64,000 nt of DNA from Apostichopus japonicus (taxonomy: Eukaryota > Echinodermata > Holothuroidea > Aspidochirotida > Stichopodidae): the NCBI RefSeq assembly GCF_037975245.1, contig NC_092564.1, positions 4,429,484 through 4,493,483 on the forward strand. The letters are read 5' to 3'. Below, piece by piece: positions 11,230 through 52,972 of the stretch. The notes beneath the pieces are model-generated. The model did not search any database. It saw only the letters and a list, made by a program, of their open reading frames with translations, and was not told the origin of the DNA. Within the stretch, counting starts at the first letter, position 1. Each line of letters begins with the position of its first letter. Position numbers and translations under genes: made by a program.

Positions 11230-19712
<8,483 letters not shown>

Positions 19713-22257: not shown

Positions 22258-22307
22258 ATGGCTCATGTCACTGGTGACTGGAACCCACTAGGGGAGGTTT
22301 TCTACAG
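22258..22307 (+). CDS. VPS16: VPS16 coding exon 1
   Basis: Encodes [16 protein letters not shown] plus two bases. WNPLG and FYRK match the VPS16 N-terminus. Donor GTATTC. The start context AAGATGGC also resembles a YY1 site, common at housekeeping starts. Confidence 0.9.
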
Positions 22308-25300
22308 GTATTCAAGCTTTGGATGTATCGTCAGTGTTAACGGCAGGGGATTAGATGGGAGGGGTCAGTCACATGACGAAACTATGCGTTTGTTGCACCA
22401 AGTACTGTACCTGTAACAACTAACATTTGTTACTCCCTAGACTGTTTACAGCCTAGCCCTGCTCCTTCCTTGTTCTGAAAGTTATGTATATCTATCTAAA
22501 CCAACTAGACTGGTGTTGTAATCATGGTGTGAAAAATGACTAGCAGTAATCTATGTGGAATGGATTTAAAAATAAAAATTGTCAATTTGGCATGCACAAA
22601 GGAGGGAGGGAGGGGGAATGTTTCAGTTTGGGAATTGGACCATTACTACAGTATGGGTGTTCATTACCCTCAACCCCACCACACCCCCTTTATTCAACCT
22701 GCATGCAAAGTGTTTATTAGCAAAAGCTTGCAAGCAGGGCTATTTGTATAGTGAGACCTAACTAATAGTCCAACTTTGACTCAGAATACACCATTTGACA
22801 TCAATTGAAAGAAAATTCTGGAGGATCCTCAAACCCTCTAAATAGGGGCAGTGCCCCCCCCCCCTCAATTATTACATCATTTATTCACCTCTGGCCCTCC
22901 ATAATGGTTAAGGTCCCTATTTTTATCAGTCGTAGAATTTACTGTTATTTATTAGCACAACCTGTGCAGAACTACTTGTGTAGCCTTCAATGAATCAAGT
23001 AGTCTAAGTATGCCTCAAAATGCCTCATTTGACTTATTAATATACAATTTTGTTCAAGGATAGGACCCCCAGTCTATTTGCTTTTTCGTTGCGTATGTTG
23101 AGTACCAGCAAAACCAGCTGTATTAAAAGTGTTCGCTAGTTCTGCATGAAATAGTTACATAGTGTTTGTTTACCTTGTGTAATTGAATTGGATCTTTTTG
23201 CCATAACGATGATAATCTCTCATATTTGTCAGGATTCAAACCTGAATGTTTGCATTTTTAGTTTCTCAACGTGATTTTGTCACTTTATATACTCATGTTT
23301 TTATCTAGACTTTTACTTTTGTACAACTCTATTTTACGTGCTTACCCTTTGTTTTTTGTTTTTTTGTTTTTTTAGGTTTAGGTCTGTTTTATAGTTGTGT
23401 TTTTAGCTTTTTGTGTTCATATTTTTACATACTGTATATACTGTTTAATTTTCGTTCATGTGTTTTCTAGACTATTTATTTCTTTGATTTCTCTGTCTTT
23501 TTGTTTTTGTTTTTGTAAAGCGCCTAGAGGCCTTTTGGTATTTGGCGCCATATTAAGAACTTATTATATTATTATTATTTGGGTCAACACTGTGTGAATG
23601 AATAACTGCCAAGTACTGTTTGTCAAGGGTGCCATGCGTTTGAGGCCTTCAATTACTGCACTTACCTAAGTTGATCAATGATAGGCCTTAAAAAACAGCC
23701 CATTTTGTATTTCAATTTTATTTTTGAACTCTGTTCCATGTGTGCGTGCACCGCACAAAAAGAAGTTTTATTGAATATGTTGCTGATTTTGTAATAAAAT
23801 CAGAAAAGTAGTTTTAACGAATGCAACAAGCGCTGACAACTACAAATTGCCATTAATTACAATTTTAGTTTCGTTAATACCTATATTTTGCCACTCTTCA
23901 GTCTGCACAGAGAAGGACAGTCAGTAGATTTAAGATTCAGATTTTGGTTGTGTGGAGTTCTACACAAAAGTTTCATTTGAACCATGAAGAGAGTATTTTA
24001 ACCCAAATACAGATGTTGTTTTTTTCATAATGAAGTGAATAAACACACTTTTTCAATTGGCATTGCCACCCTTGCCAGGCTGGCCTTGCACATCATTTTT
24101 GGGGTTTAAATGTCCTTCCCTTTTCTGATGTTAGGATTTTTTTCACATACATGTGGTGTCATGAGTACTTTGAACTTCCAGCAGTAACAATAAACTAACA
24201 TCTCACTTTGGTTTGCCCTCTATTGTCAAATATTTGCTCTTTCGTTGTTCACGATTTTTCTGTTGCTGTCTATTAGCTACTGAGTATATGATCGCTCTTG
24301 TAAGATTGCAACCAATACCAATGTAAACTTTCCTCTTTTCTTGTTTTGATTAAATTTTTTTGCAGAAAAGTTGAGCTGTACAATATGCAACATCACTGGC
24401 AACAGAAGGCAGACATACCAAGATGCAAGATTGCGGCTGCTTCATTTGGAGGGCCGATAGGTGAGTGATTTGTAAAGGAGTTAATTATTAGTATAAAGTC
24501 TTCATTGCCTATTCTAGCATTATGATTCATTCTTGTATTGGTAACCTTGAGTTGTTGAATTTTTAGCTGTATATATGTTTGGAAAACTTTAATGCCTTTG
24601 TGCTGTTCACCTTTTGGATGTTAAATACTGGATCTGTATTGTAAATGTGATATGGACAACGGGTAGGTACAGCCTGTTTAAGTGGCAAAAGCTTAAAGTT
24701 TTTTGTAAAGAAAGTGTCGTGATGGTCCATGGAGGCAGCAAACGTATTTTGGAAGGTGAAAGACTTCCCCACCTTCATTTCATCATCATAATGATCATGA
24801 CCTAAGACCTGGTTATGACATGGTTAGGCCAAGATTACTACTATGCCTTTATATTTACTTTACAATGCCTGGCATATATCTTCAGAGAGAAATATTATGT
24901 ACAGAATTCTTGTGTATTAAAGCCAAAATACCTGTGCAACAAATGGCTTTGAAAAGATGTATGTATTATTTGAATTATTGCTTAATTTATTAAGCAACGT
25001 CTTTTTATTTTTGAAACAGCTTTGATGCGAGATGACCGGAAGACTTCTAATGCACCCCCTGCCCGCAAGCCAGACATATTCATCTTTTCTTCATCTGGAA
25101 AGCCCATATCTTTCTTCAGGGTGAGCATAAAGGTTATATTAGGGATATGCACAAGTGGCTTTTATGGGAATCCTATAAAGATTTTTAATATGTATGAACC
25201 ATCTGTTTTATTTTGTATACCTGTTTTGCAAAACCTTAGATGAAACTATGAATAAATCTTTTAACTGTCTCTCAAAGAGAAGAGTTCTGCCCTGCTATCT

Positions 25301-28300
25301 TCTACCAGAATATTAGTGTCTTAGTTTAGGGCCCATTGGTTGCTATGATGCAGTAGGGGAGGTTAACTACAGTAGGTCTGTGTGCAAACTTGTTTTCCAG
25401 TCACACAGCTAAAAGATAAACGATTTTGGTTCTAAATGGAAAATTTTGAAATAAAGCTGTAAATCTTCCAAGGATCTAATACATCAAATTTATTTTTTAT
25501 GTTAAAACCTTTATCAAGTCAAACCTAAGTGTTGAAGCTACACTGCTATGGTAAGAGGAGTTTATTGCACTGCGAAACACCATGAAGTTTTTGGTTCCGT
25601 CAAATACCATAAACAGTGCAAAGAAATCACCACCAATACATTTAACCAATTACGTTCCTCATTTTAGTCTTTGTCTTCTTTGTTTTGGTTTGACAGTGGG
25701 AAAGTGGTCAGTTGGTGGACATTGGCTGGTCTAGCACAGAAGACTTGCTGTGTGTGCAACAGGATGGGACAGTTTTGACATATGACATATTTGGCAAGTT
25801 TCATGGCAGATTCAGTATGGGTCAGGTGAGTTAGCTTCTTTTATTGTTAGTACTTTCTGTACAAGTCCAGTTTTGTGAAAACAAAACAACATTTGCTTTG
25901 CCGTAAAAGGGGACATGGACCAGTGATTGAAGTTTACTTAATACATTGTTGTGTAGACATGCGGAAGTAATTAACATTACTGAGAAACCATACGCTTGTT
26001 TGACCACAAAGTTTGCTAACGTTGACTCCCAGAATTATCTCACCAGCTAAAGTAAATCTCATGCAGTTTAGAGAGTTGCAGGGTTTTTACAGGGTTTTTT
26101 AAGACCCAGGAAACAGAATGTTTGCAGCTTGTTACTTTCAGGTTAGCTCTGAATTATTTGATTATATGCTGCTAAAGAAACTTCTATTGGGACATGAAGC
26201 TACATGAATATAAAGCATGCTTTCATAATTTGCTTTCGTTTAGGTTCCGTTTAGCACTGAACATATACAAAACTTGACACAGGTTGGTAGGTAGCCTTTC
26301 TAGGATGTTACCTTGAGGTATGTGTTCCTTCAAAGACACACCCATGAGATATCAAATATCTTCCCGCAGGTTGCAAGAGACAATGAAGTTATAGACGCTA
26401 GGATTTTCTACAACCCGACCAGCGGAACCTCTGGAGTTGTTGTTTTGACGGGAAATTACAAGTTCTATGTTGTGAGTAATGTCAAGAACCCCCAGAGCAA
26501 AAAGATGGCCGATGTACCAGGTAGGTTTCCGGGAGAAAGTTGATGTCAAGCAACTTGTTAAAAAACAATTATTTAGAAAGAGGAGATAGTATTGAACAAA
26601 CCTGAACAGTAAATTTCACTCCAAAGTGCTTTCATCACCAGATCTTTTGGAACAGCAAGTATCAAGGAGTGACATTGATGTATGTTTCCCTCTATGAAAA
26701 TGCATCGCAGGGAATAATTTTAAGTGTTCGAATATTTTTTGAAAGCTGTGACTTTTATCTCTTATTGAATGCTATGGTTTCTATGCACAAACCTGCTATG
26801 CATGTGGAGCTTTTGTAGCAATGGGATGATTTGAATAGCATTGCGATGCGATACTGGATAAATTATGCCCTGCATGGTGCTACATAAATTGCCCAATCTT
26901 TTTGTACCAGTTGGCACTAGCCCTCAATGAAACATACCTACAAATCATGGTTATTTGTTAATGTCAAAAGTAACGATCTTCAGAATTGTGTGTTACCAAA
27001 CAGCATCACTATTTTACATTCATACTTGGCCATATCTGGTTCCTGTACTTCCCATCGTGATGGAATTTGGTACTTTCAGATTACAAGCACAACTGACAAA
27101 TGGGTACATGATAAACAGCACAATATTACCCATTCATGACGTATCATTTTCACGGTGACAGCACACAGTCTTGGAGAATGAACCGCAATGTTTTCTTTAC
27201 TGAGACTCAGGGATGTGCCCACGCTGGGCGGCACTGAGTGGCCCTGCCCAGCACTAAAAATTACCGCACAGCACTGTCTTAAAAATCGTTAACCCCTCCC
27301 AGCACTATTTTCATCTAAAATCCCGACATTCCTAACAATATATTCAACATAAATTGGGCCTAGCCTATGCCAAAATCATACAGACTAATAATGCATCAGT
27401 TATGCATGCGAGAAACATAATTTACGGCTCTCAATCAGTCCAATCTCTTTGAAACAAACTAATAACTGTTACCAGGTACGTAAAATTGCACTAAAAATTT
27501 TTTTTAAATGTCAATTGTTAGCAAAACTAGTACTTGTGTATGTGCTTAAAAAGCTACACAAGTACCAGCATTTGAGCACCTTCAAAAATCGAAAAATTTC
27601 TCAAAGGGGAGGAGGACACCCCCTCCCCCTTAGACCCTGCTCCACGGCGGCGATCAGTATACCTGGCACTCAGGAAATCCTGGGCACATCCCTGGAGACT
27701 GTTGATGATCACTTTGCATACTCCTAAGTAGTCCTTCCAATGGAGTGGAGAAGGGTCAAGCAATAATGAGTTCCACTGGACTATACACAGCTTCAATCTC
27801 CCCAAGATTTGGAATGCAGTGTTGAGTTTTGCAATGGCCCCATGTTTGCTTTCATCAACAAAAGACAATTTCATGTCAATCACAGCTATTTTAATAGTAA
27901 GAGCCTTCCCTCTAACTAACCCTGCATTCTAAATGACAATGACATGTGACAGAGGGTACCTACATTAATTCTGACTGCACATACATGGGATAGATCACGC
28001 ACAACATCGTTGTCAATGTTTCTTTCAAACTATAATTTAAAACTAATTTGACATCACTTCCTTTTGTGTTCCCCTACACCATGAATTCTGTTTAATTACA
28101 TTCTTGTCTTATTGTTTCATTTGTTCTCTGGCAACAGGCTTGCTGTCTCCTCCAAGTTGTTGGACAGTCATCAGTAAAGATAGAGATACCTTTGTCATGC
28201 TCACAAAAGACAAAATATTGTATGTTATAGACCCTGGGTACTGCCAAGAACAGGTAAATTAATGAGATGTTACACTGGCTGAATGTCATTATTTACCTCC

Positions 28301-31300
28301 CCCTCCGTTTCTCTTTTCCCATTTTTTGTGCTTCATAATTTACAAACCATTTTCTCTGTGGGGAAAAAAATACAATTCTTATAAACATGTTGCCTTATTC
28401 ACAAGTTGCCTTATAAACATGTTGTATATTAAAACATGTTGCCTATTGATGAAATTATAAATGAAGAAAAAAAATAATGCCAACCAAGCAAAACATTCCA
28501 AACATATCACATTTGAGCGATAACTCAAGTATAATATTGTAAAAATAGGAAGAAAAGTTTTTTTTTGTTTTAATGAAGTCTGCCATCATAGACCTGCTGT
28601 GATCCATATTAATATTTACTAGACATTGGAACAAGCCAAACTAGATATTAAGATATTCAAACAACCATATATGTGGAGTAAGGAAAACAGTTATTGATCA
28701 GGAGGTTTCAATTGACAGTGTGGATAAATTGTTCTCCTCTATATAAGTATTTCCTTGATTGCTACCAAAATAGCCAGATTTAAGTTACAGCTACTTTGAT
28801 TAAACAACAACCTGACTGGGTGTCTCTCCTACCAAGAAAGCTATACCAAGAAAACTAGAATATTTGTATCGTTACATTTGCAAAGGTTGTTACAGCGGAT
28901 GTCTGAGACTATCACCATTTACTACAGATTTGATGAAAATTATATTGTAGATGTACCTAGAATAATCATTTATTGTGTTTTCACCAAAGATATTTATAAT
29001 TATGACCACAGGGTCTGGAGAATGCAAATGGTGCCTGTATCGAGATGGCTCTTTCATTTGATAATCAACGGATTGCTTTATTCACCGACCGAGGAGACAT
29101 CCACGTCTTCACATCAGATCTTCAAGTAGGTTCATGTTCTTTGTAGAAGTCATCTCAGCTGTTAGGATTAGTCGTTTCTCTTCTTGTTAACTGTGAAGAA
29201 TATTTAATCAAGACATTGTAGTGATGGTAAATCCTTGGGCAACGTGCAGTCTACAGTGGGTGAATTTTCATCGTGTGTACTGACTGTGAAACCAGTGTAT
29301 TATATTGGTCAGTAATGTTAGGGAAGTCAATCAGTGTGGACACATTCAGGCCAGGTTATGTTGTTACCATATCAGGCCCTAGCAAGTGGCTCTAGAAGTA
29401 TATTATAGGCAAGTTAGGTGTGGCCAGCCCATATTACCACATGCAGCCATGGTTATATTGACAAGGTTTTAGTCTCGTAACAATTGGGGGGGGGGGGGTG
29501 GGGGAGTGCCATGGTCCAATGGAAAAAGGCAGTGGTATTAGAAGCAATGAAACGAAGCATCCTTTTTCCAACTCTTGATATAAATATGTTTCCAAAAAGA
29601 ACTTGATATGTTAAACATAGGTCTCATAGCAAAGATTTGTACTTTGTGTTATTGCACAGAGGTATTCTTTGCAAGCCTCATAGACTCATTTCTACTAGCT
29701 TCATTTACTGTATAAAATATTTTGATGTTCGAGACAGAAAAAGAATGTTAGGACATTCAAGGAAATCTCATCCATGCCTTTATTCTTTTTTGTATAAAAA
29801 TTGGTACCACGCAGGAACAGCATATGCTAATATTTTCTCCTATGGCTACATTTTGAAAGTCTAAAACTTTGAAAGTCACAGTTACAGTTTCAAGAATTTT
29901 TATGTCATGTAAAGAATATTTGAGAGCAGAAACAGTGTGTGTGGTTTTGTTTTTAATGTTTTAGCTAAAGATACCAATGATATGGCTCGGAAACAATGCC
30001 ACTCACTTAATTTTTTTTCTCATCTTTCATTTTTATGACTTTCAGCGAAAACTCTGCGAGTTTTCTACGAACAGTCAGATTAGGCCAAAGCAGCTTGTCT
30101 GGTGTGGTAATGGAGCAGTGGTGGCTTACTGGGAGAATCTCCTATTGGTCATAGGAATGAAGAAAAATTGGATCAAATATCCTTAATATCTTCATATCTA
30201 AATATCATAATATCTTAAATCTTAATATCTTGATATCTTATATTGGAAAAATTGGATCAAATATCCTTAATATCATAATATCTTTAGATCTTAAAATCTT
30301 GATATCTTATATTGGAAAAATTGGATCAAATATCCTTAATATCTTATTTCTTAATATCTTATATATTAATATCTTATGTATTAATATCTTATATCTTTAC
30401 ATCGTGGCTTTTTACTGTTTGATCAGTAGTCAGTAAAATAATAAGAATTACACAAAGATTGCGGCACTAATTATAGACAATATGCAGTGGGTGAAAGATG
30501 GATCATGAAGCATAGACAGTGGGAAACAATATGTTGTTAAACCAGCAGTGGGTATAAATTGATCTCACAGGTGAAACTTCATACCCAACCCACATACCAC
30601 AACACTTAAAGAATGTACCTAGTCCCATGAAAACGAGAAGGAAATATTAAATTATGTAGAACCTCAAAGATCAGAAAGTTTTACTTGCAAGTAATTCGTT
30701 TGTTATGTTGAAATCTCATAACATTGTCAGGCAGGTGTACCAACTCCACAGAGTAAATATATAGATATCATGTTATTCATTTTTGCAAAATTCGGTATGG
30801 TACATTGATAGAGCTTTGAAAGATGCATAATTTTTTTCGGTCACACTCACCCATCTGTGTAAGAGAGCAATGATCACTTAATTTGACTACCAGAATTGAG
30901 CCAATCTTGGCACAGTAGGTAGACATAGCAAATATTAACAAACTCTGTGAAATGATAGATCACTGCTTGGAGAAGTGGGATAAAAGTCCTTAATTTTCTC
31001 ACCAAATTAATTACAAAAGAAATTCTGCTGATAGGGAAGTCGCTGCCAAATTGTAAACCTATGTGGCTTGTTTAGTAGAACAAGAACAAAACATTAAATT
31101 TATTGCAAAGATATTTTACAGGAAGACATGACATAATTTCCTTAATCACAATTGGTGTACATATAATCTTGATCAGGAGGCATTTCTCGTTGCGGAAATG
31201 GACGGTTTGAGGATACTACAACCAGATATCCAAGAATTTCTTCAGGAGGTGCCAGGTGAGTATTCTAGACTACTTGTGTTCCCTCAGAAGACATAGAGGT

Positions 31301-34300
31301 AATAGTAAGTTTCTTATTTGGGTGCAACCTAGATGAATATTCAATAGTTAGTCTTTATGTCCATCTAACTATCCACAGCCTTGCTAGGAAATATCCATAT
31401 GAAATGTTCTTCTGAAGGATACATGCTTGGGAAGTGAATGTAAATGAATGTGTAATTTCTATAGTATAGATCCATATGATTTAGCCTAACTTGATGATAA
31501 GGTGCTATTTCAAAGTTTATAAAAGCTTGACATGGTTCAAATTGTAGGATGTAGGAACTGTTAATTCTGACATCATATTAAGAGGAGGCTACCTGATAAA
31601 GTTAGTGAGCAACATTAATGCTTGCATTTTGATTTTGCAATAATATTTTCATATAACAATTAAGAAAGTGACAAAATTCTTCTGAAATTTGTTTTTACAG
31701 ATAATGTAGCCGGCATTTTTAAAGTCGCTTCCATGGCAAGTGGTGCTCTGTTGTATGAAGCATCCAGAGAATTCCAGGTAAGATAATCTGATGGTTGAGC
31801 TCTGAAGTATGAAAGGAATACTGCAGTATCCAGTTTAAAAAAGGAATACGTAGTACAGAGAATTGAAGTATGACTGCAATACTGAGGTATCCAGTTTAAA
31901 AAGGAATATGTAGTACAGAGAATGGAAGTATGAATGGAATACTGCAATATCCTGTTTAAGAACGAAACTATGTAGAACAGAGAATGGAAGTATGAATGCA
32001 ATACCGAATACTTAATTTTAAAACAAATATGTAGTACAGGGAATGGATGTATGAATGAAATACTGCAGTATCAAGATTAAGAAAGGAATATGTAGTACAG
32101 AGAATGGAAGTATGACTGCAATACTGCAGTATCCAGATTAAAAAGGAATGTGTAGTACAGAGAATGGAAGCATGACTGCAATACTGCAGTATCAAGATTA
32201 AGAAAGGAATAAGTAGTACAGAGAATGGAAGTATGACTGCAATACTGCAGTATCCAGATTAAAAAAGGAATACGTAGTACAGAGAATTGAAGTATGACTG
32301 CAATACTGAGGTATCCAGTTTAAAAAGGAATATGTAGTACAGAGAATGGAAGTATGAATGGAATACTGCAATATCCTGTTTAAGAACGAAACTATGTAGA
32401 ACAGAGAATGGAAGTATGAATGCAATACCGAATACTTAATTTTAAAACAAATATGTAGTACAGGAAATGGATGTATGAATGAAATACTGCAGTATCAAGA
32501 TTAAGAAAGGAATATGTAGTACATAGAATGGAAGTATGACTGCAATACTGCAGTATCCAGATTAAAAAGGAATGTGTAGTACAGAGAATGGAAGCATGAC
32601 TGCAATACTGCAGTATCAAGATTAAGAAAGGAATAAGTAGTACAGAGAATGGAAGTATGACTGCAATACTGCAGTATCCAGATTAAAAAAGGAATACGTA
32701 GTACAGAGAATGGAAGTATGACTGCAATACTGCAGCATCCAGATTAAAAAAGGAATATGTAGTACAGAGAATGGAAGTATGACTGCAATACTGCAGGATC
32801 CAGATTAAGAAAGGAATATGTAGTACAGAGAATGGAAGTATGACTGCAATACTGCAGTATCCAGTTTATAAATATGTAATACAGAGAATGCACAAAACAG
32901 ACTCATCCTTCTTATTCAAATAAATAAACACCAAGATTTATTATTTCAGATCAGAAAGGACAACTTAGTTCATTATTTCATTTTCTCTACAAGTATATAT
33001 GTTGAATTGTGACCATTGATATTGATGATGTAAGTGAGAAAAGAGTGAAATGTACAATTTACTTATTGCAACTGTTAATTTGTGAAACTTAGAGAAGAAA
33101 TTGTGCTTATTGGTTGACTGGTATTACATAAATTTCCTTCAGTAACTAATTACCACTGATTACCAATTTGATCTAAGCTAGGGGGTGCTACTCAAAACAA
33201 GTTTACAATGGATCAGTAATTGACATCTGTTCCAAGTGTTTGAAAACATATAGATAATTGTTTACCAAGTAGATAATGATAATGAGGTATTGTATTTTGA
33301 TTTTCAGAAAAAGAGTCAGAAGGCAGACGAATACATTCGTCTTATTCATGACGACCTGCCCAACGCAGTGAAGCAGTGTCTGGAAGCAGCTGGAGAAGAA
33401 TTTGAACCAAATACACAAAAGTCTCTTCTAAGGGTATGTATGTATTTGTATGTAGTTTAGATCCTCCTGCAAGCAGGAGCTCGCAAAGAAGCCTCATTGG
33501 CTTATCAAAGCCGCAAGCTGACCGAAGTCAGTCTCTTACATTCATATTTAACGTCCGTGATTATGAATTGTTAATTGTCAACAACTCTGTAACTGGACGA
33601 AATACATTAATCTGGGAGTGACTCGAACCGGGGACCTCATGATTGAAAGGCACCGGCATTAACCACTGAGCTAACACTCCTTAAGGGTAAGCCATAACCA
33701 TACTCCTCTTAGAGATCAATTTTATTGCAGAATTGGATGTATGGGAGATTTTCTAATTTGTCTTGACTTTTTAAAAAGACTAAATTTTAGATTTCAGAGG
33801 TGAGAAAGTGCTTTACCTTTGTATTGTCTTAAACGTGTTCCCTCCCATCTTGATTCATTGTTCAGACTTTCCAATTTTCTTCTCTGTTAGTTTTTAAGGC
33901 AGCATCTGCATAATTGTTACACGCTGAGCTAGCTTACTTGTTGATGGAAATGAATGTTCAGTGGAAGATAAACCTTGTATCTCTTATAGTTGATAAGAAA
34001 ATTGCCATATTTGACCTAGTTTATTCTTCTTTATTTGACAACTCCTCATACTAAATATTTGCACTACATGTTTACAGCCATTTTACTACTTTCGAGTAAT
34101 TAGTTACTAACCATGTTCCTCCAATGTGGCATGTTTTGCTTCCCACAGAGTTTACACAGTCAACTTTTTTTTTGATACAGCTTCTCTATTCCTTTAATTT
34201 CTCATAACATCACAAATTATTATTAATATTTGGTTTTTTGAAGGGATTTAATTGAACAGCATCGAAGAAAGATAAGAGTGAAGAAATATGTGAATATATA

Positions 34301-37300
34301 TGATGTGCTATAGTTGCACAAATTTGAGTGTTTTGGGGTTAAAATGCTCACCAATATATGAGCCATTATTCTAAGATTGCCCAGTCTGAGTAGGAAAAGC
34401 TGAATGTAGCATGGCTGCATCTGGATGATGGGAATTGGGATGCCTGGGGTGGAAATACAAGGTCGATATATTATATTGACATGCTGAATTTTTCTTTCCC
34501 ATTGTCTGTCTGTTTTTAGGCCGCCTCTTTTGGGAGATGCTTCCTGACTAATTCTAACCCGTCTCAATTTGTGAAGATGTGTCAGACACTGAGAGTACGC
34601 AATGCTGCCTATGATTTCACTGTGGGAATACCTCTTACTCTAGTTCAGTATCCTTATGAACAATACAGAATGTATTTATAATTAAACTTTGAAATAAATA
34701 AAGAGCTTGTAATAAAGAAGAATTTTGGGGGGTCATAAAAGCAGATTGTCGAAAGTGACGTTAAATTTGAAGTCGCATGCTGCACGACCAACCCCATCCC
34801 TCATTGTGCCACTGATTTAAGAACGTCCAAGTTTTATAATATTTATACAGTTTACATAAAAATTGATGCAATAATATGCTGAATATATTATTTGCCACTT
34901 ACAAATAGATGGGAAGTCTTTGGAAAGTTCTAATCAAATCTTGTGGCATTTATTACATTGCTTTGTCTGTGAAATACCTCTACCCACATGAGTCCATGAA
35001 ACATGTCACTTAAGAAACAGTTCTCATCTTTTAGAGGAGGGTCTTTATGCTTCCATTAGCTTGAATTATTCCTGCATAAAATTTCTAGATATATGGTATT
35101 ATTGAACCTACTGTAAAAAAACAAACTTATGCAGTGAATCTTATCCATTAATTCCTCATGTGTATAATCAAAAATAAATGGAAATATAGTTTTGTTTTTA
35201 TATTTCTTTAGTTTTATCAAATACATAAAAGAAACTTTTCATCTTTGTAAGTAGTTTCTGTATAGAAAATTATTCATAAGTTATTGTGTCATTGCTTTGG
35301 TTGTCTCTAATAATGTATGACAACTTAGAATTTAGTGCCAATTTAAAATTTATCATTACCAACCCGTTCCTTTCTTAAGATATCAAGGCACAATTGTTTT
35401 ATAAAATACAATTTGTCAGTAGTGATTTACAACTTACTTTCCACTTTTAGAACCTTAACAATTCCTGTTTTCAGATTGAATAGGTTATCTGTTGAAGTTT
35501 TAATTGACAGGTATGTTGCTCACTTCAATTCTCATGGGTTCTTTTTATTCTAGTCCTTAGTCAAATTGTCCATGAATTGCACATTAGGAATAGAATGCTT
35601 TCACCATAAAGAGGAACCCTTGATACCTGTACTGCAAAGGAGCAAATGCTTTGATGAAAAAGATCCTCATTATTAAAGAAAAGTTTGTGGTGCCTACTGA
35701 AACCGTGAGGATTATAAATCTCAAAATTTACTTTGAAGAAATAAATGACCTCATCCATAATACATCTGATATCCCATAGCAAATTGCTCTGCAATCAACC
35801 AATTGTCTGCTCATATGTAAACATGTATAATAAGTATTTCTTCGACAAAATGTGGATAATACCAGCACTTAATGATAGACAAAATCCACAATCGTTGTTA
35901 AAAAAAAAAACCTTATGGTCAGTACTCAATTATTTCATGTTTTGTAAATTTAATGCCTGAACCTGCACTTTAGTAATCTTGTGCACCTCTAATTCATAAT
36001 TTAGGGGGAATAAGTTGGAAGTTGTTGCTTGAATGAATCAAGTTTCTAAAGGTTAGCTAAAAGTCTGAAAATGTTCTTATGTTTGGTTTCTTTCTCCGTA
36101 GATTAATAAGAAGAAGAGAATGGGAACTTGCCATGAACATTAGCAAATATCTAAAACTTTCAGACAGCGAGAGTAGAATTTTAACCCACTGGGCTTGTTA
36201 CCAGGTAATTCTTAGTCATGTAGCATTTGTCACATATATGCCATGATCGTTATGCTTTTCTTTGCAATAAATGAGGTAAATACAGGGTTACCATCTGACC
36301 AAAGTCACAGTCAAATTTCAAAATTTGGCCCATATTTTAGTCCTTTTGGCTGCCAAAAAGAAATTTTGCCTGTTAGAGAAATTTGGTCGAATTTTATCTA
36401 AAGCTACTCTAGCATGAGTATTTCAAGCATATTCATAAAACAGAAGAAGCTTCAGAAAGACCCATGTGATTTGCATGTCAAACTCGTATATACTTTTTGC
36501 CAAAATGGCAAGAGTTTAACACAAAACTTTGGAAAAGTTCGAAGTGGAAAACCTTTAGCCTATACCTATATATGTAACTTTGAGGAAAACTTTATGAACC
36601 TTAGCTGGTCCTAACCTGACCATTTTAGGATTTCTGGTATATTTTTGTTTAACACTGGATTGAATTTGACCATGGAAACTCTAATCTGGTCAAGTCTCAG
36701 GACACGTTTGACCATGAAGCACTGTTTAAAAATCTTGCGATCCTGGTTTTGCTGAGTAGGCTAAGAGTTTTCCTAAAGATTTATTTTAGGTTTCATACAA
36801 GAATAAATACAGAAACATGGCAGTTTAGCCTAAAATGTCTTGCTATGAGCAGAACTATTACATTAGACTGATCATTTTTATTTAAATTTTGTTTTTAAAT
36901 TTAATTTTCTGTTTCATATAAAGAAACAAGAAACATGGCAGTCTGGTCAAAGGCAAACCTATATATTATATTTTATTTGAGAAACTGTTACAACTCTAAT
37001 TGACTTAAGCTGCAAAAGGCTCTCTTTATTGTCATTACTGTTGACAGTTTGTTTACTATTGGAATGTTTTTGTGCTCAAAACTTTCTTCACAAATTTTAA
37101 CCATGCAATGTTACATATTTTGGGACTTTGTATCACCCATAATTTTCATATTTGATGACAATGTTACTACTTATACTACTAGTAGATATTATTATTACTC
37201 TGAGGAGGGACAGAGCCATCTTTTCCACATCTTGACGTTGCATTTGACTGTCATTGCGGCACTGTAACGAGATACATTTATGTACTGATTAGTACTAATT

Positions 37301-40300
37301 AGTCTCTTTGTCTGTCAATTAACAGGTGGAACTTAAAAAGAAGAGTGATAGTGAGATTGCAGCTAGTATCAAGAGTAAGCTCGGTGATGCCCCTAGCATC
37401 TCGTACTCAGAAATAGCCAAGAAGGCATCCGAGATATCCAGAAATGAACTGGCAGTTAAGGTGAGGATGTTATGGAGCTATTCTTGGTCTCCTGCGGATA
37501 ATGGTGAAGAATTGTCCCGGGTCTGGAATTCGTCTGGATAAAATATCAAAATTGCATCTTACGTAAAGGAGGCCCTGCCTATTCCGTTATCCTTTACACC
37601 CTCAAGAGCAGCCTTCTTTTTTTCGTGCAAAATTTTAAGCGATATTTCGATGGTATAACATATTAAAATCCTATAGCAATGAAATTCATTAAATTTAACT
37701 AGTCAAATTTTATTTCAAAGAATGAAATAAACCCTTGCAAATTTAAGTTTGTCAATTTGCTTTTTGCCAATTGATTAATACTGATCGACCCCAATCTCGT
37801 AATAGGTCAGACATTTACTACAAAACTAATTAGGCAAAATATATAATTGTTGTAACGTTTGTTTACTCTATTCATTCTGTATCACGACCGTCTTGTTTCA
37901 GTTACTCGATTATGAACCAAGGGCCTCTGAACAAGTTCCTCTGCTTCTAACAATGTCCAGCACTGAAGCGGCATTACGTAAATCCATAGAGAGTGGAGAC
38001 ACAGATCTGGGTGAGTCCATTCGATTCAACTTTGGAAACTTTACTTCCTTTCTGGAGTATCTCAACTTGGATTGAGCAGCAAATCAATTAATATTTCACA
38101 ATATTAGACAGCTCAGCAGTTCTTATGGAGCCCATCTAGTAACTTAAGTTTTTTTTTTGGCTTTGGATACTCAAGAGTTGGTCAAATTAGCCACCAAATG
38201 TAGGCCTTTAATAATCCAGTCGATCCTCAACATTTTTGTCACCAGACACTTTTTCACATTAATGCTTTAACTGCATGTAAAAACACATTGATAATCTCAA
38301 AATGAACTTTGTTGTCTTAACTTTTTTCTTAAATTTAATATTTTCTCATCAGAATCACCGCAGAAAAACCTTTAAGGCTACAGCCACAAATCTCATTCAA
38401 TTAGTTAGCTTGTGCCCCCACATGGAGTCATTTCTTTTAAATGTTGTTTTCTTTTTCTTGTTGCATAATCCATGCAGATTTAACATGTTCTTTTTTAGAA
38501 ATCAATACAGATGTTATTGGTATGGTCTTTATGAAATTAATGCCAAATTGAAAATAATAAGCGAATATGTTGGATGCAGCAAAAATGTTACAGTCTTACT
38601 ATTGTCTTCCAGTGCACTGATTGTTGATTCAACATGTCCCTGTTTTCCTTTTAATTTTTTTAATATTTTTGCAATTTTTGTTTGTTTCTTTCTTTCTTTT
38701 TTGTAGTCCATACAGTTTTAATCAGACTTATGAAGAAAATGAAAATGCAGGATTTTCTGATGATGTTAACCAATTATCCAGAAGCCCAGAGTCTGTACAT
38801 GCAATACTGTAGACAGGAACAACCACAATCACTGATTGACTTACATTACCAAAATGATAACTTCCAGGAAATGGCCGGATGTCACATCAGAAATAGCTAC
38901 GAACAGAAGGTACAATTTCATAATTAGCATTGATTACCACAGATGATATTAAAAATAGAAATAATTGTAAGGGATAGGTTTAAGTCAGTGCCCGGTGAAT
39001 CTGAAATATGATCATTTGAGAGTATTCTATTGCTGTTCAAGTTTCTTGTATAGTTTTAAATGGTAAGCATACAAATCTATGTGTAAAAATATGGCTAAAA
39101 CATTACAATATGCTAGAATTCTGATGATGTCACAGTATGTGGATAGTTGTTAACGTACAGATATGTGTGTACAAATATGGCTAAAACATTACAATATGCT
39201 AGGATTCTGTTGATGTCACAGTATGTGGATAGTTGTTAAAATGTTAACATACAGATATGTGTGTACAAATATGACTTAAACATTACAATATGCTAGGATT
39301 CTGTTGATGTCACAGTATGTGGATAGTTGTTAAAATGTTAACATACAGATATGTGTGTACAAATATGACTTAAACATTACAATATGCTAGGATTCTGTTG
39401 ATGTCACAGTATGTGGATAGTTGTTAAAATGTTAACATACAGATATGTGTGTACAAATATGGCTGAAACATTACAATATGCTAGGATTCTGTTGATTATT
39501 ACAGTTTGTGTATAGTTGTAAAATGTTAACATACAGATAATTATGTGTGTACAAATATGGCTAGAACATTACAATATGCTAGGATTCTGTTGATGTCACA
39601 GTATGTGGATAGTTGTTAACATACAGATATGTGTGTACAAATATGGCTAAAACATTACAATATGCTAGAATTCTGTTGATGTCACAGTATGTGGATAGTT
39701 GTTAACATGCAGATATGTGTGTACAAATATGGCTAGAACATTACAATATGCTAGGATTCTGTTGATGTCACAGTATGTGGATAGTTGTTAAAATGTTAAC
39801 ATACTGATCTGTGGGTACAAATATGGCTAGAACATTACAATATGCTAGGATTCTGTTGATTTTTACAGTTTGTGTATAGTTGTAAAATGTTAACATACAG
39901 TTATGTGTGTACAAATATGGCTAAAACATTACAATATGCTAGGACTCTGTTGATGTCACAGTATTTGGATAGTTGTTAAAATGTTAACATACTGATATGT
40001 GGGTACAAATATGGCTAAATCTGTTCAGTTTGCTAAGGTTCTGCAGATTTCATCTTTCTTATACAGTTCTAGAAAGTAATCATACCCATCTGTGTGTGCA
40101 CATTTGGGAAAAATACTGCAATATGCTAGAATAACATTGGTCATAAAATGTTGCAATATGTTAGGAAAATTCTTCTTTTCATTACCTGCTTTGCAAAGAA
40201 GTTGTTTTATCCACTTTCCCTTTATTATAACAGACCCTTGCGAAGCAAATTGATTATCTGCGGTCAGCTCAGGAAAATTATACGCGTTCCAGAAATGAAT

Positions 40301-43300
40301 TTGCTGCAAAGGTGAGTAGAAGTTGCCTTGAACCAAACAACAGGACGGTAGTCTTGGTAGAAATTGTACCTAACATTTAGTCACAAATTTGAAATTGTAG
40401 CTTGCATGTCATTTTCAAGTATAACCTATTGACACATACATGTAGTATCAAATTGGAGATTGAGGTGCTCATTCATGCCTCTTCAGATATCTTTCCTTAG
40501 GGATTAAGTTATTTGACTTTCATTCCACTTATTTATACCAGTTTGAAAATGTGCCAAATTATCAAAATACAGTCATAAAAAAAAGAAGAATACGTGTAAA
40601 ATTGTACAACAGCGGATATTTAATACGGCATCACATCACTAAATGCTGCAAAGATTGGTTGAATTGCTATACAATTGCACAGATGTCTAGCAGATTTGTA
40701 CAACAGGAACCATAGTAAATTTTAGGACAGGGTCTTCAGAACGTTTGAATATGCAACACAAAATTTGAACACTAAAAAATAGAAGCTGTAAGACAAGGGG
40801 ATCAATAACTGGTAATTAAAAAATATAAGGTTAGAAAACAGATGTCGGAGGAAGCTGATTTATAATTTTTTTTAATTATTTTTTAAAATATTATTATGAA
40901 GAATGTTTACCCTGACTCCTAGATTTATGGGAAGTTTTTGTCGTCGAATTCAACAACGCTAAGACATACTTATATTAGCATAAACTTACAAAGGATTTGT
41001 TTTGCAACCGCTTTTTTAGCCAATGAATGCCTCTGTTATAACCAATGATGTCGCTGTTGCGTTCTCTTTTGGTAATTTTGTAGTGCACAGATGAACAACG
41101 AAAGTTACTCGACTGTCAGCAACAGATCGAGGAGAAACACGAGGTTGAATTCGTGGGTCTGTCTGTTCATGACACCGCACACAAACTGATCGTCTCTGGT
41201 TTACCAAAGCTTGCAGAATCCATCAGGAAAGACTTCAGAATTCCAGATAAAAGGTGAGAACAATATTGAGATTTGTCCGCTGATCGTATTCTGGAACCTT
41301 TCACTTTGATATTTCTCTTTCCGGGAGATATTTCAAACTTAGAAATGCATCGACATGTTGACGTGGCATATTTAATCACTAAAGAGTGGAAATTAATTCA
41401 GTAATATTCTGCTTTCTCTCAGAGATGCAACACGATAGCAGAGTAACACCATCTATTAATTTTAACGGTTGATTGAGGACTATCCTCAAGTATATTCAAA
41501 TCAAGGAATGTTTTTCTCAAATGTTTGTTTTACATTTTTGCTTCCTTGCCGGAAGCAAAAAGAATCGATGTGGTGGCATGTGTGAGTGTGTATGTATGTG
41601 ACACTTGCTTGTAAACAAGGTAATGCAACAAGGTAATGATGGATTAACTTCATACTTGGTATGTGTCTTATTGCATAACAAGAAGCCTATTGTTTTCTGT
41701 GAAGTTCATCCTCATATGGGGTCAACAGAGGTCAAAGTCTAAAACTTTTGTGAATAGATAACCCCAAAAGTACATCTTTGTTGAACTTCATACATGGTAT
41801 GCAGATTCAGCTTGTTGAGTGCAAGAACTCAATTGAAATTGGTGGAGGTCAAAGGTCATTTGAGTCAACAATTTAAATGAAAGTCTGAAATCTTGTAAAC
41901 TCAATAACACAACAAGTACTTCTTTCTTGAACTTCATACTTAGTATGTAGAGCCAGCTTGCTGAGAGCATGAATCCTAGTGAAATTGGTAGAGGTCAAAA
42001 GTCACATGAGGTCAACAGGCATCAAAGTCTGAAAACCTTTTAAACATTATAACTCCAAAATTAAAGCTACAATTATTCTGTGTATTCTCCAGTGCTATGA
42101 TTTTCGTTTGGTGAACATAGTTTGGTCAAATTCAGTTCAGTTTAGTTCTGTGAAGGGTCTTCAACGAAACATACCTGGCATCCAGGTATTGAAATCTGCT
42201 TTAGAGTTCATACTCTTGCTTCAAATGTGCACTCAAACCTCCTTTAAGTTTCATTTTTTGAGCTTCAAGGGGTCAGCAGGTTATCTCAAATGGGCACAAA
42301 CTGGCTCAAGGGGCCAAATGGTTATCTCAAATGGTTGAAAAATAGGCCATTTTCTCAAAAATATATGTATAAACAATGTCATGTAACTCTCAGCAATTAC
42401 TAAAGGGATTGCTAGCTCAAAGTTGGTAAAATATGTCTATATTTCACCTAGGAAGATTGTTCTTCCTGGATATTGAAACATTTTGGTTTAAAAATTCTAT
42501 AATGTAAATTCCTTGTCAGTGCATGACATGATTGATGTCCACAAGGGATTGCTACAAATCTTTTCTGGTTCTCACTAAATTCTGGGAAAAATTTATCTCC
42601 CTTGCTCTACTTGAGTCAGTAAGTTATTTTGAATTTTCAGCAACTTGTAAGGCAAGGAATCACAAAGCTAACTTGATTTCTGGTTTTGTATAGATTCTGG
42701 TTTTTGAAGATTGATGCTCTGGCAGTTAAAGGCGACTGGTTGGAGATAGAAAAATTTTCCAAAAGTAAGAAGTCGCCTATTGGATATGAGGTAAGCAAAT
42801 AGGACGGTAAATTTCACACATTGTTCTTTCATCACTTGTCAGCAAACTTATCAACTTTGTTCTCATATTTTGCAAGTTTCATGTTGAGCTTCAGATTAAC
42901 CTGTTAGGATGCATTTTTAAATCCCGTACTTTCATTTCATGCTTCAGAGCACTTCTACTGACAGTATGAATATGTTTCTATCAGATAAAGGTAAGGAACT
43001 GTTCATACTGTCAGTACGATTGCTTCAAAGCATGATAAGGGAAGACAGTATAGAGTGGTATTAGCATTAAGAATCAGATAAAGATTAGTAACTGTTCATA
43101 CTGTCAGTAGGATAGCTTCAAAGCAGGATAAGGGAAGACAGTATAGAGTGGTATTAGCATTAGAATCAGATAAAGGTTAGGAACTGTTCATACTGTCGGT
43201 ATGAGTGCTTTGAAGCATGATATGAGAGGACAGTAAAGAGTGGTTTTAGCATGAAGCAATTGTCTCAACTGGCTGGTTCAGATTTGTGACCACATGAATA

Positions 43301-46300
43301 TTAATTAGTGAATGATTAGTAGTTGCAGTGTGGGCTTGGTCAAATGTAAAACAGATGTCTTTTTCAACACTTTTTATTTTGTGATATTGGTATTATAACA
43401 AAAGCTGGCTCAATGTTGTTGAATTTATCAAAGATTGCAACTTTTGTTTTCTTTATTATTTCGAAATGTTTTTAACTTGGCCATATCAATTTAAAGGGTA
43501 TATTAATAGGGAAGAAGAATGTGGATACAAGAGCCAAAAAAGTGAGGGAAAAGCCAGAAATATCTCAGATATTGTTTTTGATCCTTCCCTAAGATTTCTC
43601 ATTCATATTTGCTTGAACAAGAAATTCAGCAATTTTCTGGAATGCCAAACGTATATAACACAAATGTTGGAATTTCTGCTATCAGCATTGATATCATGTA
43701 TCTATATGCTATCGATACTCTATTTTCTCGTCCATTCTCTTTCGCCAAGTTCCTACTTCCTACTGTATCCCCTTTAGACGTCCCTGTGCCCTTCGAATGA
43801 AGTTGCATAGTGTATTTATTTACCACATCAGCAACCTATTTAGTTTGATGAATTTGAATTGTATGAAATATGACATTGCAGATTAGATTAACTTATCAAT
43901 TTTGAAAGGTACATTTTTTACTTACGGTCGGTGGAGGTTTTATTTATAAATTACTTGGTTTTCCACATCCCTCTTGCCCTTTACCTAGTGATAAAATGTA
44001 TGACTTAAAAAAAACAGAATTGGAAATAAAAACAAGTCTTCTTTCCTCCCATTTCATCTGCTGTTTGAAAAGTGAATTGTACATATTGCACTTGAAAATC
44101 ACAAAAAAAATGATATTATAGTTAAAGCAATGTATTAAGTTGGTCTGTACTTTTAGTCACTGTTTCAACCATACTTTATTAGTGATTTTGCTCACAAATT
44201 TTATTCAGACTTAAAGAAAAACCTTCAAGCTAACAAGGGAGTAGATCACTGTTAGTACTAAAAAGTTGGTTTCCTGCAGTTTTTTGCCAAGTTGTTTGTT
44301 GAACCAAACCACTTTCAGTTAAAAAGCCAAAGATATCCAATGTTTGGTGTCCTAAGGGCATTTTTTTTTTTTAAATTGAGAGATTAAACCTATTGATGAC
44401 GTATTTAATATGTACAACAACAAGCCTCTTGCAGTTTTATCTATTAAAATTTCATAAGCCTGACGTTTTTGGTCTCAACAGGATCTTGTTTAGAGACAGT
44501 CTGACAATTTTTTTTTGTGAAAACATACAAATTGAGCAAACAAATGGGCAGACAAATACATCTATTAACATTTGAAGATACACTGGCTATTAACTTACTC
44601 CAGTCAGTCGAAGATGTCACTCAAACAGCATGTAAAAGAATACAGAAGGCATAACACTTGTGACTGAAATGAAAGGAACCAGAGAGGAGGTTTCAATAAA
44701 CTTAATATGCAACTTTCTGGCTACCAAAAGAAACCAAAACAGGGGAAAAGGGGTGGGGGGGTGTGTGTGGTGCGGTAATCAATAACAGAAGAAAGAGAAG
44801 ACAATTAAAGCAATGACTAACATACAGAAGCACAGACCTAGCTGTGATTAGTACGATAACATCTAAGGTTTTTCTTGAAGGAATTCATAGTATGAGGAGT
44901 TTTAATTGTGGTTGTTAAAGAATTGAATACCTATGCAACATCTAGCAGTTAGACTACTAGGCCTATATATAACATTTCCAAAGCAGATGAATGCAGGCCT
45001 AGGGTACTTTGTATGGCAATAACTGCTTCATGGGATGTTGACTAAACATTGCAGGGGTCTAGCTCTTCATCTGAATCTTATGGGGAGATATATAAAACTA
45101 TCATTTTTTAAAAATGAAATGCAACCAATGGCTTCAAAAAGCACACTCTATTTGTCAAAGTATTTGTCAGAACCTTGCTATGAAGGGAAAAAAACTAATT
45201 TATATTTGAAATCAAGGTTGTGTTGTTTTTCATTATTGACCATGCACAGAGGTCAGATTTCCGTAAAAACATTTAACTTTTAATAACTCTCATGAGATTT
45301 AGTTTTACACGCAAATGGAGCAAATTGATTTTCCCAGTATTATATGACTTCCTGGATGAGTATGATAGCGCGACCTTTAGCTGCTCTGAAATTACAAAAG
45401 GTAACTGTTGATTTCATGTACGACTGCTTAGAAAAGAGCAGGTTGTTTTATTTTCATTTCTAAACTGATTAAAACTAACAAACACCGGTATTGCCCACAT
45501 CCCACCCTATCTATTGTCGTTAATAGTGCAATGTTTGGCACCAATTCTGGGAACTGTTTCCTCTAACCCAAATTGGAACAATTAGGTGGCAATTAACCTT
45601 ACTAGCGAGTGGTTCAGTGTAACAAATGTCCTCATAATCATATGTAGGTTAAGGTTAGCATAGAATGGGTCTACTGGAAGTATCTGTTTGCCAAGAAGTT
45701 TAAGTGTTGATGCTTGCTTATAGCAAGGTGGTAAATATGTGTTGCCACCTTTAGTACATTACTGCAATCAATTATCATCTTTTCTTGCTCAAAAGTGTTT
45801 GTCTGTAGATATTGTATGATAAAACACAGTCCTTTCAGTCCATGCAAACCTGTGCTGCACAACATACACTTCAAGTTGTACAAGTTTTGCTAACTTGTCG
45901 GTACCCTAGGTGTGTTGGTAATGCATGAACTTGTGTCTGTGTGTATGTCATCACCCTAACGTTAATTCGTTCGTTCCGTGTGATTTGGTTAAATAATGCA
46001 GACGAAAGTTGAAGTTGAAGGAAACTTGTCAAAAGTGAAAGAGATGGCTTTCAATCTGCCTTCGGCATAGGTATGCGTTCATGAATGTTTATAATTGAAT
46101 TCAGAAAGGAATATTGAGGATACTGTAGCATATATTGTATATATATGAAGATAGTATTTATATCTTAAAAATAAAACTTAAACAAATTATGTAGTTACAG
46201 AAAGTGTAAAACAAAACTTATTGGCCCATTTCCTAGTTTACACAACTTGTTTTATTGCTGAGGCTTTAGTTATGAAGTTTTACTTTGAATTTGTAAAATA

Positions 46301-49300
46301 ATTTGTCAACAACTGTCTTCGTTTCTATTTTTGTCTGTTGTTGATTCTTTTTTATTCTTTTTCTTTGAAATGTTTGATGAACTAATGGAAAATTTGAAGA
46401 AAAAAACTATAGCAAAGGATGTTATAAGCGATTGGGTCGATTTCACTAAGCAGAAGACCATAATTAAAAAGTCTAAACAACAACAAAAACAGCTTAGTGG
46501 GGCAAGTAGGCTGTAGACAACTATTTTGAACATTCCTCTAAGATAATCATGTAATTATTTCCCCTTCCCTCCCCCTTCCCCCTCCCCTTTCCCCCTGCCC
46601 CTTCCCCCTGCCCCTTTCTTTTGGAACATTTTCAGTGCCACAAGTTTTGAAACAATCTTGGAAACCCTCAGTCAAATTGCCTTATATGTAAACAGTAGAC
46701 ATTGATAACTATAAACTGTACTAGGCGTCTACATGGTATGATCAAGTATTACGTACACATTGCAATAAATCTAATCAGCTATGAATATATATAATTTAAC
46801 TAGATGTACTAGGCGTCTACTTGGTATGATCCAGTTTTATGTACACATTGCAATAAATCTATTCCGCTCACTGAACCTTTGAGTCGATTCTCTTCTAAAA
46901 AAAAAAAATTCTCTCAGCATGAAAGCAAACATACAGTCCTGCAGGATTTCGTTGTTCCGCTAATTGGCATTCAAGTAAAGTAGTCTCTCTCTCTCTGCAG
47001 TCTACTCAACTGTGCGTGTCAGATGAATGGGTATAATAATTATCCTGAGATCCGTTCATCTGAAGAAGAAAAAAATATTATAAAAACCAGTGATGCAGTA
47101 TCCACCACACTGACTAAACCTTCATGTTGAGTCCTGAAATGTACAACATTATTATGTTCTGAAAAAGTACGATGAAATTGATATAGACTTCATATGGGAA
47201 ATGAAGCATTTGATACTTCTCGTTGAAAATTGCCAACAAATTCCAGTGGGAAGTGGGAGAAGAGTTTCGGTTATCACAAAGTGCTCTTCCCCCCCCCACC
47301 TCCCCACATTGTCAGGATCTGTATTCTACTGTACATTATTCTGACCCTTTTGAATTTCTTGTATAAGTGTGCAATAAACAGGTATAAGTTGAAATGTGTA
47401 AACCAAAAAAAGTAGTTTGCAGTGGATATGGCTGCCTGCATCCTGTGAAATTGTAAAAATTGTTTAGTGCTACAGTGATCTTTCTTTGTTTATATAGTGA
47501 TGGACTAGTAAACATCATATTGTCATCTGTATCTTGTTTACAGGATAGTGTGATACTTATCAATCTGTCTGAAAAAACATTTGTGAAACCGTTCTGTATT
47601 AAATGACAACTGTTATCTATGAATAGTTTAGATGTAACGTGACACACAGGTACATCTGTCTACATAAAGTTTTAATCACCATGTGACTTGGATGGTGCAC
47701 ACAAAGCAATCTAAAAGTCAAAGTCATATCGAAAATCATCTCGCTTTTAATGCTTCAGGGAGACTAGAAAAAAAAATCTCTTGGCAGATGACTTTGACAG
47801 TTGACTTTAGCTGTTTAAGGGTCACATATTTTTATCCTCCAAGCACTTCATGTTTTCTTCAATGCCCCCCCCTTTTTTTCCTAGTTATTGTTGTTGATAT
47901 TGTATGAATTAGGTGTTTTATCACCCATGTGTTTATTTCCATGGGAATTTAAGATCGTGTTGGGTTAAATGGTGCACATAGTCAAATGTTGTTGATGTCA
48001 CTGTTTGCCAGTTCAAGTAGACCTGTGGCACACTGTATACAGTACAGACCTGGTATTCAAGGGTTTTTCTGCTTGGTGACCCCAATTTTTACCTTGATCA
48101 TGTTGACTACTCTCCATTAGTAGATGATTTGGTCTGGGGCTGGGGAAGGGGTTTAGGGGAAGGAGGTATCCCCCTCACCTTTGAGAATAGGTTTCATGGG
48201 ATTAGGGGTGCATAGTTCCAAAATGGTGTTACATTAGTACTTTTGAAGTCATCATTTACCTTCAACTGTTTTCCCTTTGTTTTTACCTCACTAATATAGC
48301 ACTTTCCTTTTCTCTTTTGAAATGTTTGGCAACCTGCAAAATGTTTTAGTGATCCTAGAAAGGGGAGAGGGGAGGGGGGGAAGGGAACAAAACAAAAACA
48401 TCAAGGTTTCACAATTAATAAATGAAAATATTCCATTTATGTTTGTGGGGTCCATATTCTGTTTCAGGATGATGATGTTAGCATGACAACTGAAACAGAA
48501 GTTTTGCATGACATGAAAACACACATCGTTCAATAGTTTTGTTTACAACATTTTTGCACTTATTAAATTATGTTTAGTAGATTTTTGGCATACATGCAAA
48601 AAATTTCAAACATAATAGTTCTCGAAAACATACATTATTAATATGCAATAAGATCCCTTCATATTCATTTGATTAAGTTAAAAATCAGTGGGACACTACA
48701 GACCTTTGTGATCTCAAGTAGTAACATATAATTGACAAATTTCTATAGCCATTGATTAACTTAATTATCACTATAGGCCCGTGCAGAGGAGTTATTGTTA
48801 TGCCATCTTTATGATTGCTATTAGCCTGAGTATCTTTGCCTTTGTTTTGATATTCATAAATACTTACATGGATAGGCAAGGGTGCATACTGTGGCTTTTG
48901 GTTATCATCCCTCCCCTACCCCCTTCCCTCCCCCAGCAAAAAGATGGCTATATAAGGAAAGCCAACAACTAACAGCTGGATAACTCAGTTGCTAGAGCAT
49001 ATAACGTGTAACCTTGAGTTGACTGACTTGAGCTCATGTTCAACTTAAAAAATCCTCTTCTTTTCCAAGAATTGTTTTTTTTTTATGTGTCAAACTACAT
49101 GTCATGGTTTGACTTTCCCATATTCTTCAGATTTGGCATGGCTCACCATAACCTACTCAAAGTTAAACATATTTTTTAAAAAATCATGTGTTTGTCTTGA
49201 ACATACATAAATGATATGTTGGCATATGTGAGGTGGCCTCTTACTCCACCCTGCAACCCCCCACCCTCCAAATGCATCACCTTATCCATTGTACAGAGAT

Positions 49301-49536
49301 TTGCAATTTTGATGAGGTGGTTTCATATGCCAAATTTAACTTTCATGATGCCTCAGGGGAAAAGCAGATGGCAGCTACACAAACAGGAGATGCCAAACCA
49401 ATTATTTGCCCTAACTGTTTTCATATTTATTTATATATATAAATATATATATATATATATAGCGGGAGGCCCGTGGTTCGAATCCCGGTGGAGGCTGAAA
49501 GTTTTTTCACTGTTCTTGATTTTCCAACTCATTACG

Positions 49537-49607
<71 letters not shown>

Positions 49608-51896: not shown

Positions 51897-51945
51897 TTTA
51901 TACCCCTGATTAATGAACTTATCTATATATACATGCACATTAAAT

Positions 51946-51970
51946 CTGTCACAAAGAACACTTGTGACAG
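51946..51970 (+). other. 3' UTR hairpin, copy 1
   Basis: CTGTCACAA and TTGTGACAG form a perfect 9-bp stem around a 7-nt loop, just after ATTAAA (51939-51944), a variant poly(A) signal. Confidence 0.6.
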
Positions 51971-52099
51971 TTCATTGAGGGTACTATTTCAAGAGAGAAA
52001 TAACCACCAAGATACAAAACATTTAAGCCCAGCTCAGCCCGCACTAGTAAATTTATACCCCTGATTATGAACTGATCTATATATACATGCACATTAAAT

Positions 52100-52124
52100 C
52101 TGTCACAAAGAACAATTGTGACAG
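52100..52124 (+). other. 3' UTR hairpin, copy 2
   Basis: The same 9-bp stem CTGTCACAA/TTGTGACAG. The loop differs from copy 1 by one base (C to A) and the stem is unchanged. Confidence 0.6.
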
Positions 52125-52972
52125 TTCATTGAGAGTACTCTTTGTGTTACTAAAAGAATTAAGAGATGACATGAATAGGTTAATTACTCCTTTAAGAGAT
52201 CCATATCTTATGATTGGAGTGAAGATTAAGTTTTGGAAGTTTACTCAGTATATCCAACCAAGGATGAAGTCAGGTCTACTCGGCCTAGAGAGATATTAAG
52301 ACGATAATTTCATTATGAATTTACATATTTATCTCTGTACGATGAGCTATCTCGTGACCTGGAGTTTCTTAACACAATTATAAGATTACTGTGGATTTCT
52401 CAGCAGCTCCACAGTACCTTACTACAGTGTTGGGAGACCTTTCATTTATTTACTATTGTATATATTTTCCCTCTTTGCAATGAGTTATCATGTGATCTAG
52501 AGTTTCTGAGGACAATTATTGGAAGGAGAGTGGCTCTGTGCCATTCTACAGTGTTGGGAGATAGAACTTATGAGTAGCATCCCTCAACCACAATAGAGGA
52601 TACAAAAATCTGGTTGGAAATGAAGAACTGGTTGAACCTAATTGATGATGGCTGATATGAATATGTACATCAGGACTGCCCAAAACGATTTTCTCTACAA
52701 ATTCTTGTTTTCATGAACTTTCATGATCACAAAATTGGGGGGGGGGGTGTGGTGGGGGCAGGGGGAGGCCACTGATACCTGTGTGTTGTTTATATATCAC
52801 TGATAGCTCACCCGGCGTACCGGCTGTGGAAAAGGCTATTAGGGTCCATAAGAATCCCCCTGAAACATGAGTATCAGATATGTAACCTGTGATTATTACT
52901 ACTCAGATTAGGTAAAAGAAGAATTCTAGAGAAGAAAACAAAATTGTTAGCAAACTGTTTATCTACTGCAAA

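Follow-up and report, generated by a model that had tools for sequence, protein, structure and literature searches.

The stretch of Apostichopus japonicus DNA analysed here (hereafter the window, 64,000 nucleotides at its full length) carries VPS16, a core gene of endolysosomal tethering complexes, on its plus strand (Table 1). The gene was anchored by tblastn with a working version of the human VPS16 sequence, after which the exon ends were set by splice-site reading. In the joined 828-residue translation, Pfam recognises both Vps16 domains, Vps16_N with 378 bits and Vps16_C with 332.6 bits, and the VPS16 reading frame is intact along the whole gene. Genome-wide searches covered 671,581,487 bases in 35 contigs. 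Among viral contigs and the contigs of prokaryote genomes, no relative of VPS16 was confirmed (4 and 12 stretches, respectively, matched the peptide pattern).

Several further features lie within and around the gene. On the minus strand, 15757-17762 holds exons that encode a Ras-family GTPase (Pfam Ras), which by eye we take to resemble Rab11, and a plus-strand open frame of 462 codons at 62145-63530 has no Pfam match. Tandem arrays are found at 31804-32890 (61-nt unit, 17.6 copies, beginning 27 nt past the intron 10 donor), at 39050-40019 (94-nt unit, 9.4 copies, within intron 17) and at 58069-58454 (105-nt unit, 3.6 copies, overlapping a 150-codon open frame at 58096-58545). At 51839-52143 a tandem duplication, in two copies of about 154 nt with 88% matches, takes in the end of the last VPS16 exon, its stop codon and the beginning of the 3' region; beside the one at exon 8 described below, this is the second exon-tail duplication in VPS16.

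Table 1. Coordinates of VPS16 and of the features at its U12-type introns (window positions)
Feature	Position	Strand	Description
VPS16 gene	22258..51896	+	22 exons, 21 introns, 828 codons without internal stop; joined model
Exon 8	30046..30176	+	131 nt; ends in phase 2, within a codon split AA/A
Core copy 1	30162..30190	+	holds donor 1 at 30177
AT-rich tandem array around the three donors	30172..30397	+	periods 8, 15, 31 and 69
Intron 8, putative U12-type AT-AC	30177..31160	+	984 nt; from donor and branch-site scores and junction scan
Donor 1, ATATCCTT	30177..30184	+	adjoins the end of the coding exon
Core copy 2	30246..30274	+	identical to copy 1; holds donor 2 at 30261
Core copy 3	30315..30343	+	identical to copy 1; holds donor 3 at 30330
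U12 branch site, TTCCTTAAT	31138..31146	+	branch A at 31145
Exon 9	31161..31255	+	
Intron 12, putative U12-type GT-AG	34648..35474	+	donor GTATCCTT; branch site AACCTTAAC at 35451-35459

The junction between exons 8 and 9

A sequence-only reading of this DNA had proposed that a U12-type AT-AC intron separates exons 8 and 9 of VPS16. Our analysis confirms the claim, and the interpretation as a U12-type intron, drawn as it is from the DNA, appears well supported: it accords with the reading frame, the homology, the donor, the branch site, the terminal AC and the U6atac and U12 genes of the genome. The letters at the two ends are as that reading gave them, GGATCAA being followed by ATATCCTTAA at 30177 and GGTGTAC by ATATAATC at 31161. 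Beyond the junction the frame of exon 8 soon reaches a stop, as claimed (TAA at 30184-30186), and no GT lies between the one at 30148-30149 and this TAA. The gap-free alignment with human VPS16 near the junction was likewise seen, using the working human sequence. Because this alignment continues across the junction, an additional frame-restoring exon between 30200 and 31150, which would have spoken against the claim, appears unnecessary.

The signals themselves bear out the proposal at both ends. All eight letters of the donor at 30177 match the exact AT-class donor of the minor spliceosome, and the branch site has the letters claimed for it, its A at 31145 lying 16 nt before the first exon base and 15 nt before the C of the terminal AC. 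When all 21 VPS16 introns were scored with a hand-set matrix based on the general U12 donor and branch-site consensus, intron 8 scored 13.3 for its donor and 11.8 for its branch site, and intron 12 scored 14.0 and 9.7; the other 19 introns had donor scores of -2.4 to -21.7 and branch-site scores of at most 4.7. By themselves these U12 words are not rare in the window. RTATCCTT occurs 8 times on the two strands of the 64 kb against 5.52 expected (a count of 8 is reached by 20 of 100 shuffles), and TTCCTTRAY occurs 6 times against 4.06 expected (reached by 17 of 100). What is rare is their joint placement at the junction that frame and homology demand, for which the chance is about 5e-7, calculated from 4.3e-5 per position over about 30 donor positions and 3.2e-5 over about 12 branch positions.

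Two scans, whose scores depend on the working human VPS16 sequence, bear on the place of the junction. In the first, which was free of motifs, 100 donor and 130 acceptor positions were combined into 13000 pairs, of which 2750 kept an open frame; the top group consisted of neighbouring shifts, with two placements lacking known termini at a score of 180 and six, including 30176/31161, at 179. In the second, GT-AG, GC-AG or AT-AC ends were required over a wider range, and 30176/31161 ranked first among the resulting 46 open-frame junctions with its score of 179, followed at 165 by an AT-AC pair that has no U12 donor. Since ATAT follows both ends of the intron, five placements, shifted by 0 to 4 nt, give the same mRNA, and known splice termini are found in the unshifted one only.

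It could be argued that exon 8 is instead joined by the major spliceosome, from the GT after 30147 to an AG within exon 9, and that the AT-AC motifs are there by chance. The sequence-only reading had itself named a GT donor at 30147 as a competing site. From this site the best GT-AG junction, 30147/31177, does have an open frame, but it deletes 15 residues of the protein and scores 132 against 179. The Pfam profile scores, which are independent of the working human sequence, point the same way, Vps16_N falling from 378 bits with the AT-AC splice to 352 bits with the best GT-AG splice (a difference of 26 bits; a protein truncated to 459 residues served as the GT-AG query, and both matches end at profile position 409). 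Such a junction would also leave a perfect and well-placed U12 donor and branch site unexplained, and we regard it as extremely improbable.

Comparison with solved structures extends the homology across the AT-AC junction. The VPS16 chain 8dit_B aligns through it with an E-value of 3e-9, and a second chain, 7zu0_B, gives a weak match (E 0.19); both alignments have a one-residue gap just behind the junction. A retrocopy would be proof of the splice; a search of the genome for one, with the peptide of exons 8-10, gave three matches, each of them a single exon of the VPS16 locus.

The genome contains genes for RNAs of the minor spliceosome, with one match above the cut-off for U6atac (104.2 bits) and one for U12 snRNA (115.9 bits); in the 64-kb window, Rfam at gathering cut-offs gave no match. 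The U6atac match has an AAGGA stretch able to pair with the TCCTT of the donor, and the U12 match has a GTAAGGA stretch able to pair with the branch site. In the mechanism we propose, U11 and then U6atac would pair with ATATCCTT and U12 with TTCCTTAAT, and the minor spliceosome would join 30176 to 31161, whereupon the codon AA/A would be completed and the VPS16 N-terminal domain read on. A gene finder restricted to GT-AG introns is expected to miss this junction and so to truncate or distort the VPS16 protein.

Three copies of the exon end and its donor

The new element at the locus is a tandem donor array. A 29-nt core, GAAAAATTGGATCAA followed by ATATCCTTAATATC, which comprises 15 nt of exon tail and 14 nt of donor, is present in three identical tandem copies, so that perfect U12 donors ATATCCTT stand at 30177, 30261 and 30330, with the copies 84 and 69 nt apart. 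Splicing from donor 2 would make exon 8 longer by 84 nt and splicing from donor 3 by 153 nt; the two lengths are multiples of three, and both extensions contain the TAA at 30184 plus further stops. The predicted RNA structure of exon 8 with the array was no better than that of shuffled sequences (z -0.93; equalled or bettered by 19 of 100 shuffles).

The context of the array is AT-rich and repetitive, and the copies could in principle have arisen through an assembly error at a locus that is really single-copy. The assembly, however, comprises 35 contigs for 671.6 Mb, and the spacers differ by substitutions and a 15-nt gap, unlike a simple assembly duplication, for which reason we consider such an error highly unlikely.

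Where the copies came from is suggested by their distribution. The 16-nt junction word ATTGGATCAAATATCC has exactly three occurrences in the genome (671.6 Mb), all of them in the donor array; with one mismatch it is found at 39 further places, which brings the total to 42, where the reversed control has 15. Tandem arrays are numerous in the window, where the 34 rows reported by TRF were merged by hand into 19 arrays, 13 of them within the gene span. The confinement of the exact 16-mer to this site, together with these 19 arrays, favours local duplication, and most likely the array grew locally from the exon edge. Membership of the junction repeat in a dispersed element is unsupported, all three of its exact copies being in the exon 8 array. 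A 17-nt junction word matched 8 viral contigs, which we take to be chance. A preference of tandem arrays for VPS16 exon edges was also considered and rejected: 2 arrays reach an edge against a random mean of 2.96 (a mean inflated by two arrays of about 1 kb), and 0.875 of random placements reach 2.

Of the three donors the first is most likely preferred, since the exon it defines is short (131 nt), and it is most likely this donor that makes the protein. An mRNA spliced from donor 2 or 3 would carry a premature TAA and would probably be destroyed. In this reading donors 2 and 3 would be by-products of tandem duplication at the exon-intron edge, and the tripled exon end and donor are most likely an unusual but harmless local duplication.

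Alternatively, the tripling could be functional in one of two ways. First, donors 2 and 3 could add a poison segment to the mRNA; second, the array could hold U11 in the manner of a USSE. In either case VPS16 output would follow the activity of the minor spliceosome. The identity of the three donors across 29 nt, including 15 nt of exon, would fit such a role, as would the stops carried by the added segments of 84 and 153 nt, and in RNPC3 and SNRNP48 an enhancer that binds U11 is known to consist of tandem U12 donors (PMC5473595, PMC8329584). In one version, the array would act as a dose-sensitive switch, in which U11 binds three interchangeable donors, the downstream ones divert splicing into a poison exon, and the loss or gain of a unit always leaves the exon end and donor intact; for this version, too, we see little likelihood. 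Against a function, finding two ATATCCTT words 60-90 nt from each other is nothing rare in the genome, with 641 such places compared with 396 for the reversed pattern; nor are arrays in excess at VPS16 exon edges. The sequence flanking the core, compared by eye between copies 1 and 2, shows 4 differences in 40 aligned positions beside the 15-nt gap, too few for selection on the core to be demonstrable. We therefore judge a functional tripling unlikely.

Several of the ATATCCTT pairs 60-90 nt apart form satellite arrays, among the matches listed. Satellite-like arrays with ATATCCTT every 60-100 nt include, again among the matches listed, those at C2:5020753-5022495 and C2:25765781-25767492.

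As a whole, the explanation we prefer, namely that intron 8 is a U12-type AT-AC intron spliced preferentially from donor 1, with donors 2 and 3 left by duplication, is in our judgement very probably correct. With its tripled donor, the locus is a natural experiment on which of several identical donors, at growing distance from the exon, the minor spliceosome selects, a question that otherwise requires built minigenes. In the titles and abstract openings among the matches listed, we recognised no tandem U12 donors at a coding exon.

Relation to known U12-type introns and donor arrays

U12-type AT-AC introns are characterised by the donor ATATCCTT, the branch site TCCTTAAC and an AC end (PMC2831892). 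Intron 8 shares all three signals with this class, with a joining at the AC end that is true to frame and homology, and U6atac and U12 snRNA genes are present in its genome. Its phase, 2, fits the report that minor introns tend to avoid phase 0 (PMC10639083). AT-AC introns make up about 26% of human minor introns (PMC10639083), so the subtype of intron 8 is not unusual. Reading intron 8 as an ordinary AT-AC intron of the U12 type is well supported; what sets it apart from the class is that its donor and exon tail stand in three tandem copies.

Two papers, one of them PMC12332006, already attribute a U12 intron to Vps16. The mouse primer Vps16_U12_intron runs from the exon codons L-T-Y-T-CA into GTATCCC (PMC12332006), and in the window exon 12 ends L-T-L-V-CA before GTATCCTT, with the same codon and phase. 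On the strength of this match we take intron 12 to be the known VPS16 U12 intron and intron 8 to be a further one. The mouse intron and intron 12 thus share gene, codon, phase and GT-AG U12 class. The branch site of intron 12 is weaker than that of intron 8 (32 of 127984 window positions score as high). Intron 8 differs from the mouse intron in being of the AT-AC class and in lying 163 codons upstream in the coding order of the window's VPS16, and it brings the U12-type introns of this gene to two. Mammalian sodium and calcium channel genes are also described as carrying two U12-type introns (PMC2831892). VPS16 resembles these in number but is a different gene, with one AT-AC and one GT-AG intron.

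The closest known counterpart considered for the donor array is the USSE of RNPC3 and SNRNP48, in which tandem U12 donors bind U11 unspliced and activate an upstream U2-type acceptor (PMC5473595, PMC8329584). In both arrangements a U2-type acceptor is followed by perfect U12-type donors in tandem. Unlike the unspliced sites of the USSE, however, the first donor of the VPS16 array appears from frame and homology to be a working donor, and the array, with its copies 84 and 69 nt apart, lies outside the genes for minor-spliceosome parts and hence outside the feedback location of RNPC3 and SNRNP48. Because the gene differs, and because the first site reads as a working donor while the second and third may or may not be used, we do not file the array as a USSE; it may work in a similar manner.
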